From Deltaproteobacteria bacterium (GTDB lineage Bacteria > Myxococcota > XYA12-FULL-58-9 > JABJBS01): a stretch of DNA of 54,355 nucleotides. Position 1 is the first letter of the stretch; every line of letters begins with the position of its first letter. Under the pieces are notes generated by a model. It saw only the letters and a list, made by a program, of their open reading frames with translations, ran no database searches and was not told the origin of the DNA. The position numbers and the translations under genes were made by a program. The stretch is from contig JABJBS010000364.1 of NCBI GenBank assembly GCA_018668695.1, positions 1 through 54,355 on the forward strand, in the 5' to 3' direction. Shown here one piece after another: positions 20,595 through 24,128 of the stretch.

Positions 20595-21005
20595 TTAAGG
20601 TGCTGCTTGAGTGGCGATTCCAAGCTTTAGAAACCCTGCGGCTCGAGCAGCATCCATGGCTTCCACCACGGCCCCATGGTCGGTTTCTTCGTCAGCTTGA
20701 ATAACGATTTGCCGGTTGGGGGTTTCATTAAATATTGTTTCGAGCGCCGCTTGGAGTGCTCCCACATCCATCTCTTCACCGCCGTAAACCAGTTGCCCTG
20801 TTTCAGTAACAGTCACAACAACGCTTTGTGCTTCGGTGGTGTCCGCTGAGCTTTTGGCCTTGGGAAGAGTCACATCAATTCCCGGGCTTTGGACAAAGGT
20901 AGAGGTAATGAGAAAGAAAATGAGCAATATAAATACGATATCAACCAAGGGTGTAAGGTTGATGTCCGTAAGCCCACGTCTTTTACTTCGGGTTGAGAAA
21001 TTCAT
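20595..21005 (-). CDS. exbD: ExbD/TolR biopolymer transport protein
   Basis: 136 residues. A short cytoplasmic N-terminus (RSKRRGLTDINLTPLVDIVF) leads into the single membrane helix, with the essential Asp in LVDIVFILLIFFLIT, followed by the periplasmic domain ending with ADEETDHGAVVEAMDAARAAG. With ExbB it forms the proton-driven motor that energises TonB-dependent outer-membrane uptake, or the related Tol system. Its start overlaps the exbB stop by 4 bp. A TonB-system role is favoured over Tol because of the Fur box upstream; no tonB gene is in the window. Confidence 0.93.
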   Translation of the reverse strand: MNFSTRSKRRGLTDINLTPLVDIVFILLIFFLITSTFVQSPGIDVTLPKAKSSADTTEAQSVVVTVTETGQLVYGGEEMDVGALQAALETIFNETPNRQIVIQADEETDHGAVVEAMDAARAAGFLKLGIATQAAP

Positions 21006-21607
21006 TCTCGAGAAGCCACCATATCGATGAGATTCAGTGAGCGTTCTTCCATTTCAAGCAATAGGCCATCCACGCGTCCAAGTAGGTATTTGTAAAAAAT
21101 AAAGGAAGGGATGGCTACGGTCAGCCCGATGGCTGTGGTGATAAGAGCTTGCCAGATGCCGCTGGCAAATACCGACGGGTCACCAAGGCCCGCAGCTTCG
21201 ACTTCTCGAAACACGCCCATCATACCGGTAACAGTTCCAAGCAATCCCATGAGAGGAGAGATGGCCGCACAGGTGCCGAGTACCTCAACAAATTTTTCGA
21301 GTTGGGCACCTTCGTGTTTACCGACCTCTTCGACGGCTTCTTTAACCACGGGCCGTTGGCGTCGGGCATTTCGAAGCGCGGCGGCCATGATGTTGGCCAT
21401 GGGGCTTTGGCTTTCCTCGCACAAAAGCAGTGCATCGGAGATCCGGTCTTCCCGGATCATGGTTTGAATGCGATCAATGAATTGGTCTGGGATCACCCTT
21501 GAGCGTTTCAGAGTCCAGAGACGTTCTAAAAAAACGCTCAGTGCTACCAATGAACAAATCCCAATTGGGATGACGATGGGGCCACCTTTTAAGAGGATGT
21601 CGTACAT
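21002..21607 (-). CDS. exbB: ExbB/TolQ/MotA-family proton channel protein
   Basis: 201 residues from the ATG at 21607 (MYDILLKGGPIVIPIGICSL), which has AGGA 6 nt upstream; the longer frame to 21676 overlaps the upstream gene and lacks a site. Three membrane segments are visible: the N-terminal one, ISPLMGLLGTVTGMMGVF and ALITTAIGLTVAIPSFIFY, the last two carrying the MotA/TolQ/ExbB signature. It pairs with ExbD and is placed after a Fur-box promoter, consistent with iron uptake. Confidence 0.93.
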   Translation of the reverse strand: MYDILLKGGPIVIPIGICSLVALSVFLERLWTLKRSRVIPDQFIDRIQTMIREDRISDALLLCEESQSPMANIMAAALRNARRQRPVVKEAVEEVGKHEGAQLEKFVEVLGTCAAISPLMGLLGTVTGMMGVFREVEAAGLGDPSVFASGIWQALITTAIGLTVAIPSFIFYKYLLGRVDGLLLEMEERSLNLIDMVASRE

Positions 21608-21620
21608 AATTTTTCCTGAG

Positions 21621-21839
21621 TTACTCTTTCTTGCGAGCTCGGATTTGTGTGAGGTCTGGGTTCGCATCACTAACACGTTCGCAGGAGCCTGGGCCAGTGG
21701 CGTTACTTGAGCCGCTTGGACAAGTGGCGCAGGTACCCGTGCAAGCTGCCTGACGGCGCTTTATCAAATTTCGCACGATGACCACAGTGGATCCGATAAG
21801 GATAGCTGTAGCCAATGTGAGCTGAAGGACTTCGTTCAT
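21621..21839 (-). CDS. Small Cys-rich membrane protein, FeoB-associated type
   Basis: 72 residues from the ATG at 21839 (a GTG at 21842 is directly before it). One N-terminal membrane segment (LTLATAILIGSTVVIVRNLI) is followed by KRRQAACTGTCATCPSG and a later Cys, the layout of the FeoB-associated Cys-rich membrane proteins. There is no strong ribosome-binding site, and FeoB itself is not in the window. Position between the Fur box and exbB supports an iron-related role. It could bind Fe or another metal through the Cys cluster. Confidence 0.65.
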   Translation of the reverse strand: MNEVLQLTLATAILIGSTVVIVRNLIKRRQAACTGTCATCPSGSSNATGPGSCERVSDANPDLTQIRARKKE

Positions 21840-21895: not shown

Positions 21896-21924
21896 TTGAC
21901 AATGAGAATGATTCTCATTATTAA
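21896..21924 (+). promoter_or_regulatory. Fur box forming the spacer of a sigma-70 promoter
   Basis: AATGAGAATGATTCTCATT at 21901-21919 is a perfect 9-1-9 palindrome and fits the 7-1-7 Fur core TGAnAATnATTnTCA. On the plus strand it fills a textbook promoter: TTGACA (21896-21901), 17 bp, TATTAA (21919-21924), with a start expected near 21931. Bound Fur would block RNA polymerase when iron is plentiful. The same box lies 60-80 bp before the minus-strand Cys-rich protein/exbBD genes and could control both directions. Confidence 0.85.
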
Positions 21925-21930
21925 CTTCTT

Positions 21931-22105
21931 GTGTCGTCAAACACATTTGTTTCTCCTAGATGAGCCACATTTTAAGAAACACTGGACGACTAGACGAATT
22001 TTGGACTCCCAGGAGTGAAGTGAGCCCCACTCTTGGAATTTGACCATTTATTTCGTTTGCACCGTTTCTGCTGAGTGAGCCCGGCGGAAACGGTGCTTTT
22101 TTTTT
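21931..22105 (+). ncRNA. Candidate Fur-regulated small RNA (RyhB/PrrF-like in logic)
   Basis: About 175 nt between a consensus promoter with an embedded Fur box and a strong intrinsic terminator, with no credible gene between them. The only ATG frame (from 21960, 27 codons) lacks a ribosome-binding site. The arrangement matches iron-responsive small RNAs such as RyhB in enterobacteria or PrrF in pseudomonads, which are made when iron is scarce and repress iron-using proteins. No sequence likeness to these is claimed. The transcript end is set by the T-run at 22097-22105; the start is predicted from promoter spacing. Confidence 0.7.
22059..22105 (+). terminator. Strong intrinsic terminator of the candidate small RNA
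   Basis: GCACCGTTTC (22059-22068) pairs perfectly with GAAACGGTGC (22087-22096). The stem extends inward by five more pairs (TGCTG with CGGCG, including G-T), and nine T follow at once (22097-22105). It works only on the plus strand. Confidence 0.93.
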
Positions 22106-22242
22106 GTTATCATTTAGATGTCCTGGCCCTGCAATCGTCTCTGATTCTAAGTTCCTAATATCGGACAATTATCTCGAGCCCTAGCGAATTGACATCTTCC
22201 TAATTTGTGAAAAAGAGGGAGTTCTCTTACATGTGGGTATTT

Positions 22243-22292: not shown

Positions 22293-22658
22293 AAGTTATT
22301 TACTGTTGACACTTTTTGTCCGGGAGGTTTAGAATTTTTAGGTGAGCAACGAGTCGCAACCGCATGCGACGCAACCGAGGAAGAGAAGAAGCTCCAAAAA
22401 CAAAGAAGTCGTGTCGGTAGCGGTCCTTGGTGGAGGGCGATTGGTTACGACGACAAGTTCTTGAACGAAGAGAGTTTCAATTGGATATGGAAGCACTGGC
22501 AGGCGTGGCGCTCAGAGTTATTCGCAACCGACCTTGTTAAGATGGAGAAGAGTGAGAGGTCGGAGAAGGTGATGGGGATCACCGGATTTTATTGGGGGGT
22601 GAGCATAAGCTGCACCTACGATTCACGGTTTCTAGAGGTATTGTACCGAGGAGTTTGA
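22293..22658 (+). pseudogene. Start-less open frame, possible gene remnant
   Basis: A 121-codon frame open from 22293 to the TGA at 22656-22658, with no ATG, GTG or TTG before the TTG at 22461. It has protein-like composition: FCPGGLEFLGEQRVATACD, then VGSGPWWRAIGYDDKFLNEE and FNWIWKHWQAWRSEL. I recognise no family. A second frame (22592-22825) continues with protein-like text (AGKVSEESGYLVRDFLLGER), as if a frameshift separates them. The region has no neighbours' support and sits between the small RNA and trmL. A truncated, frameshifted gene is my reading; chance open frames remain possible. Confidence 0.35.
22306..22335 (+). promoter_or_regulatory. Candidate sigma-70 promoter in gene-poor region
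   Basis: TTGACA at 22306-22311, an 18-bp spacer and TAGAAT at 22330-22335. Transcription would begin near 22342, exactly at a GTG that opens a 40-codon frame ending at 22464 (SNESQPHATQPRKRRSSKNK...). The role is unknown. Confidence 0.45.
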
Positions 22659-22788
22659 ACAAGCAGGCACACTTCAGAACGCTGAAAGCAGGTAAGGTAT
22701 CCGAGGAATCGGGCTATCTCGTTAGAGATTTTCTCCTAGGTGAAAGATGGGAGATGGCATTAGGCCCAACGAATTCCTTTGCAGATAT

Positions 22789-23274
22789 TCAGGCCGGATT
22801 CGGACCCTGCACCACTGTGCCTTGAAGCTGACGCAGCGCCTCGTAAGTCGCAATTCCAGCTGATGTCGCTAAGTTGAGCGACCGGAGGAAAGATTGATAC
22901 CGAGGTATGGTGACGCGCTGTTCGTCACCTACCTCATCGTGAAGCCATTGCGGCGCTCCTGCCGTTTCCTTACCAAACAACAATCCGTCACCATCTTCAT
23001 ACTCAATGTCCCAGTGCGCCTTTTCGGCGTGCGTCGTAAAGAGCCAGAGCCGCTTAGGTCCAGCATCACTTGCTTTAAACGCTTCCCAACTCTCATGTTC
23101 ATGCACATCGAGATGCTGCCAATAATCCATTCCTGCACGGCGTAATCGCTTTTCGGTGATCTCAAAACCTAAAGGGTGAATGAGATGCAGCCGCGTATCG
23201 GTAAATGCACATAACCTACCAATATTGCCGGTGTTTTGAGGAATGTCGGGTTGGAATAAAACAATATGAAGCAT
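22789..23274 (-). CDS. trmL: tRNA (cytidine(34)-2'-O)-methyltransferase
   Basis: 161 residues from the ATG at 23274 (MLHIVLFQPDIPQNTGNIGR), the usual TrmL opening; the frame runs nine residues further up without family likeness. It methylates the wobble ribose of tRNA-Leu isoacceptors using S-adenosylmethionine. SPOUT-family motifs are visible: the N-terminal NTGNIGR, FGKETAGAPQWL and the C-terminal RSLNLATSAGIATYEALRQ that makes the trefoil knot. Length is normal. It is divergent from the cytochrome gene. Confidence 0.93.
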   Translation of the reverse strand: MLHIVLFQPDIPQNTGNIGRLCAFTDTRLHLIHPLGFEITEKRLRRAGMDYWQHLDVHEHESWEAFKASDAGPKRLWLFTTHAEKAHWDIEYEDGDGLLFGKETAGAPQWLHDEVGDEQRVTIPRYQSFLRSLNLATSAGIATYEALRQLQGTVVQGPNPA

Positions 23275-23379
23275 GGGGCGCCTAGTTTGATCGATTTTCA
23301 AGTTTGCCAGTTCTCCTATGATTCAAGTAGGAGTAACTCGCAATACAATAGCGACGCTGGGCGTCTGAAACTCAATGGG

Positions 23380-23396: not shown

Positions 23397-23504
23397 ATTT
23401 ATGAACAATCGCAGCTCTAGGTGTTGCCTAACGATGGGATTGTTTGGAAATAAGTGTCCTAGATACACTTCCCAACGCGTGCGGTGTTTAACGAAGGGCT
23501 CTTG

Positions 23505-24128
23505 ATGAAAACCGTTTGGACCACAGTGTTTTTGGCGCTTTGGATATGCGCCTGTGAACCAGCCGAAGTAACCCGAGGCCGAGAGCATTACGAGAACTTG
23601 TGTGCCCTGTGTCATGGAGACGAAGGGGAAGGTTATGTTTCACCCAAAGCCAATGCTTTGACCAATCAAGACTTTATCGCCACAGCCTCGGATGAGTTCT
23701 TGAAAGTAGCCATTGAGCAGGGTCGTCCCGAAACGAAGATGGGAGCCTACGGCGTTGATTGGCTAGGACCCCTAGATGCTGAAGGCGTTTCAGACCTCAT
23801 AGCTTTTCTGCGTTCGTACCAAGAAGTGGATATCGAGATCGACGCGGACTGGACGGCAAGCGATGACGGAGCAGAACTTGCGCCTGGTTTAGAGCTTTAT
23901 GCAAGTCAGTGCGCATTTTGTCATGGCGCAACGGGCGAGGGTGATGTGGCACTGAGTTTGAATAATCGAACTTTTCTCAGCAGTGTAAGCGATGACTTCT
24001 TACGGTATGCTATCGCACGAGGGCGCCGAGGCACAGCGATGGGCGCCTATGACGGCTCATTGAGTGCCAAAGAGATTGCAGATCTAGTACTTGCTATTCG
24101 GTCCTTTGCTGAGACAACTGGAGAATAA
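23505..24128 (+). CDS. Di-heme cytochrome c lipoprotein
   Basis: 207 residues from the ATG at 23505, with AAGGG upstream; the frame start at 23484 is less good. The signal peptide ends at ICAC, a lipobox. Two class I cytochrome c domains follow: CALCHGDEGEG (heme 1, ~residue 33) with a Met-bearing KMGAYG region, and CAFCHGATGEG (heme 2, ~residue 139) with AMGAYDG. It should be membrane-anchored in the periplasm and carry electrons; partners are unknown. It starts a three-lipoprotein operon with the rhodanese (2 bp gap) and the DUF4382-like gene. Confidence 0.9.
   Translation: MKTVWTTVFLALWICACEPAEVTRGREHYENLCALCHGDEGEGYVSPKANALTNQDFIATASDEFLKVAIEQGRPETKMGAYGVDWLGPLDAEGVSDLIAFLRSYQEVDIEIDADWTASDDGAELAPGLELYASQCAFCHGATGEGDVALSLNNRTFLSSVSDDFLRYAIARGRRGTAMGAYDGSLSAKEIADLVLAIRSFAETTGE

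Follow-up and report, generated by a model that had tools for sequence, protein, structure and literature searches.

The segment at positions 21896-22105 of the window (the whole stretch of DNA that was analyzed, 54,355 nucleotides), extending from the first T of a -35 hexamer to the last T of a terminator tract, is a real, well-built regulatory unit. It is best explained, taken as a whole, by a Fur-repressed RNA of the + strand that would spare iron by acting upon cytochrome c mRNAs, a reading to which we assign a probability of about 0.62. The features of the unit and its surroundings are listed in Table 1.

Table 1. Coordinates, strand and properties of the features in and around the putative Fur-controlled RNA unit (positions within the window).
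Feature	Position	Strand	Remarks
-35 hexamer TTGACA	21896-21901	+	sequence
Spacer, 17 bp	21902-21918	+	sequence
-10 hexamer TATTAA	21919-21924	+	sequence; 4/6 to TATAAT
Fur box AATGAGAATGATTCTCATT, predicted	21901-21919	.	perfect palindrome around free centre; fills promoter spacer
Small RNA, predicted, 173-175 nt	21931-22105	+	start placed at G21931 or G21933 from promoter and terminator
Hairpin 1	21933-21990	+	UGAGCC 21961-21966 across apical loop
Hairpin 2	21992-22058	+	loop AAGUGAGCCC, UGAGCC 22021-22026; predicted main pairing seed
Terminator hairpin (third)	22059-22105	+	UGAGCC 22076-22081 in loop
The same hairpin as intrinsic terminator, with T9	22059-22105	+	15-bp stem 22059-22096, 9 G-C pairs, loop of 8 containing UGAGCC
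Di-haem cytochrome c gene, predicted target	23505-24128	+	GGGCTC 23496-23501 in Shine-Dalgarno region would pair with loop GAGCCC 22022-22027
FeoB-associated Cys-rich membrane protein, first gene of divergent operon	21621-21839	-	PF12669, 26.5 bits (cut-off 27 bits)
ExbB/TolQ-type proton channel	21002-21607	-	PF01618
ExbD/TolR	20595-21005	-	PF02472
SpoU-type methylase, next gene on right	22789-23301	-	

The first-pass annotation had described TTGACA and TATTAA hexamers 17 bp apart with a perfect Fur palindrome in the spacer, followed by a 15-bp terminator stem with T9; the promoter and box can be read directly at 21896-21924, and the stem and T tract were borne out as well. The two hexamers of the + strand promoter together match the consensus at 10 of 12 positions, and the promoter was missing from the list of a simple promoter scan because its -10 hexamer is without the final T. 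The box itself is one to which Fur would be expected to bind, judging by its sequence: the exact pattern TGAGAATNATTCTCA has a single occurrence in the 5.87-Mb genome, at this box. With up to two mismatches allowed, 49 sites were found in the 5.87-Mb assembly versus 10 for a reversed control pattern; sites with at least 16 of 18 matches numbered three within 1.76 Mb of the genome and zero in the Markov control. The second-best of these boxes (C138, G000:C138:1929; L002/L012) occupies the 17 bp between TTGACA and TATTAT of a promoter which precedes a flavodoxin operon in the same layout and orientation as the promoter at 21896; the third (C117) is at the start of a gene for a thioredoxin-like 2Fe-2S ferredoxin. 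Therefore, the Fur motif marks iron-related genes in the source genome, which has two Fur-family genes, and the layout at the flavodoxin operon indicates that transcription from such a promoter leaves the box in the direction that is assumed for the RNA. The same motif was found upstream of a short-chain dehydrogenase gene, which we presume resembles the siderophore gene entA, in two relatives from the phylum, and a Fur-box scan across the genomes of the order gave few good sites. Behind the flavodoxin promoter (L012 1564-2326, G000:C138) there is a 74-aa flavodoxin-like fragment in addition to a full flavodoxin gene.

Both neighbouring transcription units are on the minus strand, opposite to the terminator, which is therefore an orphan unless a + strand RNA begins at the Fur box. 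Comparably strong terminators numbered 36 in 1.76 Mb, most of them situated 9-61 nt behind a gene on the same strand; the terminator of the unit, with 3.3 kb to the nearest such gene, was the strongest orphan among the 36. The isolation of this terminator, whose upstream side is free of + strand genes for 3.3 kb, is our main ground for predicting a + strand RNA from the Fur promoter. Such a Fur-controlled RNA is likely, its transcription and its response to iron being predicted from the arrangement of these elements. A few other strong terminators, at L086 10372-10407, L140 2708-2685, L189 221-197 and L192 140-118, are 120 nt to 1 kb from a same-strand gene and may belong to additional small RNAs or to short genes that were missed. 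Separately, within 22306-22780 a near-consensus promoter, TTGACA-18-TAGAAT (11/12), faces a stretch in which the + strand has only short frames, possibly the remains of a decayed gene.

All RNA computations used 21933 as the start. The computed fold of 21933-22105 has three hairpins and an energy of -61.6 kcal/mol, a value equal to that for 21928-22107, the segment for which the fold was compared with shuffles (z = -5.1). The hexamer UGAGCC begins at 21961, at 22021 and at 22076, and all three copies are in hairpin-loop zones of the predicted fold; of 2000 shuffles, 7 contained some hexamer with three copies within zones of this kind.

We examined if this RNA could pair with the start regions of genes by an accessibility-weighted scan, which considered helices of 6-16 bp that were perfect when G-U pairs were allowed, their stacking energies, and the opening costs on both sides. 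The scan covered 1404 start regions from about 30% of the source genome, and taken together these regions paired with the RNA no more than mid-gene controls did. The genes with CxxCH haem motifs were conspicuous in the first hit list (5/22 at E <= -6); this class was noticed post hoc, and a new set of genes, members of the cytochrome family PF13442 taken from other contigs, then gave the same picture, 7 of 13 reaching E <= -5 versus a background of 6.8%. With duplicates removed, 13 of 31 haem start regions reached E <= -5 versus 28 of 417 start regions from exported non-haem genes (Fisher 3e-7). Lipoprotein or export-signal composition was rejected as an explanation for the haem signal, the rate for exported non-haem genes being only 6-7%. 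The reverse complement, the reversed RNA and a loop-altered RNA gave no excess at the haem start regions, and 120 shuffled RNAs yielded at most 7 haem matches versus 14 for the real RNA, which was equalled by none of the 120. The signal was also confined in position: when 70-nt windows were tried, the haem rate was 37.5% at -40 to +29, 30% at -5 to +64 and 20% at +30 to +99, versus 3-13% in the other windows and 5-9% throughout for control genes (this run contained few duplicate genes and the result was unaffected by them). An unbiased hexamer count placed GGGCTC, which is complementary to the GAGCCC of loops 2 and 3, as the top-enriched hexamer of the haem start regions (5/31 versus 4/417), and its core GGCTC was present in 10 of 31 versus 25 of 417.

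The predicted helices are short, 6-9 bp with one of 11 bp, and a plain duplex energy calculated without accessibility gave only a weak trend (p = 0.057). At several genes, among them the di-haem cytochrome c gene at 23505, the predicted site overlaps the Shine-Dalgarno region; a rubrerythrin gene (E = -9.6) has GGGCTCA at +14, within its early codons, which would pair with an RNA loop. A Fur-family gene is directly upstream of the rubrerythrin gene (L121 / L025). Of the four motif classes compared (haem, 4Fe-4S, 2Fe-2S and radical-SAM), haem alone was conspicuous, and one of six Fe-S genes drawn from a separate search had pairing, most of those tested showing none. The classical targets of RyhB are sdhCDAB, acn, sodB and bfr; in the scan the SdhB start and a bacterioferritin-like gene had no pairing with the RNA, and sdhC, acn and sodB were outside the sequence set scanned. 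Given that the RNA exists, cytochrome c mRNAs are probably its targets, as gauged by the complementarity.

It is conceivable that the Fur-regulated RNA is real and that its match to the cytochromes is accidental, the RNA using its UGAGCC loops instead to act upon a protein or upon different mRNAs. The triple loop motif would also fit a protein-binding or protein-titrating RNA, in keeping with start regions that have no overall excess of pairing and with the one duplex measure that yields just a trend; however, accident would have to account for an enrichment that was repeated in genes from other contigs and that stood out in the shuffled-RNA control, the position control and the unbiased hexamer ranking, and we regard it as unlikely.

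The Fur box could alternatively serve only the divergent minus-strand operon, with the + strand promoter and terminator being incidental or belonging to an unrelated RNA. The box is 61 bp upstream of the first codon of this operon, and a promoter-like match of the minus strand, TTGACG-18-GAGAAT (9/12), overlaps it; in G003, which belongs to the order of the source genome, orthologous exbB and exbD genes are behind feoA-feoB with a Fur-like box upstream. Because of this distance and these orthologues, the box very probably controls the FeoB-associated/ExbB/ExbD operon as well, and a Fur site before such an operon needs no small RNA as its explanation. Yet the better promoter match faces the + strand and recurs with the same layout and orientation before the flavodoxin gene, a + transcript is needed to account for the strong terminator, around which there is no other + strand gene for 3.3 kb, and the loops of the RNA match cytochrome starts; moreover, control of the operon and control of the RNA are mutually compatible. 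Service to the operon alone is therefore quite improbable. The ExbB orthologues in three genomes of the order are 55-64% identical, and in none of these three is there a Fur box plus terminator at the same place. The FeoB-associated protein heads the exbB-exbD operon (20595-21839) although a clear FeoB was not found in the source genome, where the best FeoB_N match was at most 47 bits versus 192 for the FeoB of G003.

Some Fur-controlled transcripts encode small proteins, but that this one acts through a short iron-responsive peptide rather than as RNA is very improbable, in agreement with the earlier statement that no credible protein lies between promoter and terminator: the longest ATG frame starting within the RNA on its own strand (27 aa, 21960-22043) crosses two strong hairpins, has no Pfam match and, when read by eye, has CTCCT upstream instead of a Shine-Dalgarno sequence.

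The earlier reading of the unit as an iron-responsive small RNA accordingly gains from the orphan terminator, the flavodoxin promoter layout, the strong fold and the complementarity between loops and cytochromes, and it stays the best reading; what it overlooked was the divergent iron-transport operon and the cytochromes as likely targets. The proposed mechanism, in which pairing in the cell and the direction of its effect are inferred, is as follows. When iron is sufficient, Fur on the spacer box would block the divergent FeoB-associated/ExbB/ExbD operon as well as the + strand promoter. At low iron, Fur would depart and a non-coding RNA of about 173 nt would be made, from 21931/21933 to 22105, and fold into three hairpins, each presenting UGAGCC(C) in its loop. 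The predicted partners of these loops are GGGCUC/GGCUCA-like sites, at the ribosome-binding region or within the first codons, in the mRNAs of exported c-type cytochromes (and of rubrerythrin). Such pairing may lower the translation of these mRNAs, so that scarce iron would be saved at the same time as flavodoxin and iron uptake are turned on.

A DNA similarity search of 117 relatives and the source genome found no homologous RNA, the matches being Fur boxes only; the window's family contains no other genome, and so offers no comparison material for conservation or covariation of the RNA. At gathering scores, an Rfam cmscan of the window returned only a tRNA, with no match to RyhB, PrrF, NrrF, FsrA or other sRNA families. 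Hfq (PF17209) was not found in the source genome (98.6% complete) or in 38 relatives by a search that recovers Hfq in E. coli and other controls; the literature, too, describes myxobacteria as lacking hfq (PMC5684412).

Among known systems, the nearest analogue in the predicted mode of action is the Staphylococcus RNA IsrR, Fur-controlled, Hfq-independent and equipped with three single-stranded pairing regions (174-nt query; PMC9410917). The likeness comprises a Fur box at the promoter, a similar length, three pairing regions and, as predicted here, function without Hfq and a block on the translation of iron proteins; the pairing regions of IsrR, however, are C-rich and its shown targets are enzymes of nitrate respiration, whereas here a UGAGCC repeat and exported c-type cytochromes are predicted, and no sequence or synteny kinship with IsrR was seen. 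RyhB of enterobacteria likewise has a Fur box in its promoter, a terminator with a long U tract, and the iron-sparing role predicted here, but it works with Hfq (PMC9410917). NrrF of Neisseria, a Fur-controlled sRNA which represses cytochrome bc1 (petABC; PMC5586341), also has a cytochrome as target, whereas here the predicted targets are numerous separate genes for exported cytochromes c. FsrA of Bacillus subtilis, also Fur-controlled, pairs with Shine-Dalgarno sequences via a C-rich motif (PMC9410917) but has FbpA/B/C as its helper proteins. Pxr of Myxococcus xanthus, from a probably related phylum and a host without hfq, has three stem-loops too (PMC5684412), but controls development and not iron, and had no Rfam match in the window.

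If expressed, the predicted RNA is best read as a functional analogue of RyhB and IsrR, belonging to the iron-sparing kind of sRNA by role and with no kinship in sequence. We would give about even odds that it is a new, unrelated iron-sparing sRNA of an Hfq-less lineage, probably within Myxococcota, with a regulon centred on exported c-type cytochromes and with one UGAGCC seed in three loops, that of the terminator included. The analysis yields specific target sites and a loop motif, both open to testing in a heterologous reporter system with no need to grow the source organism. Iron-sparing sRNAs have had several independent origins; this RNA, if the reading is true, would represent an additional one, in a lineage lacking Hfq, and its regulon would consist of extracytoplasmic cytochromes instead of enzymes of the TCA cycle.
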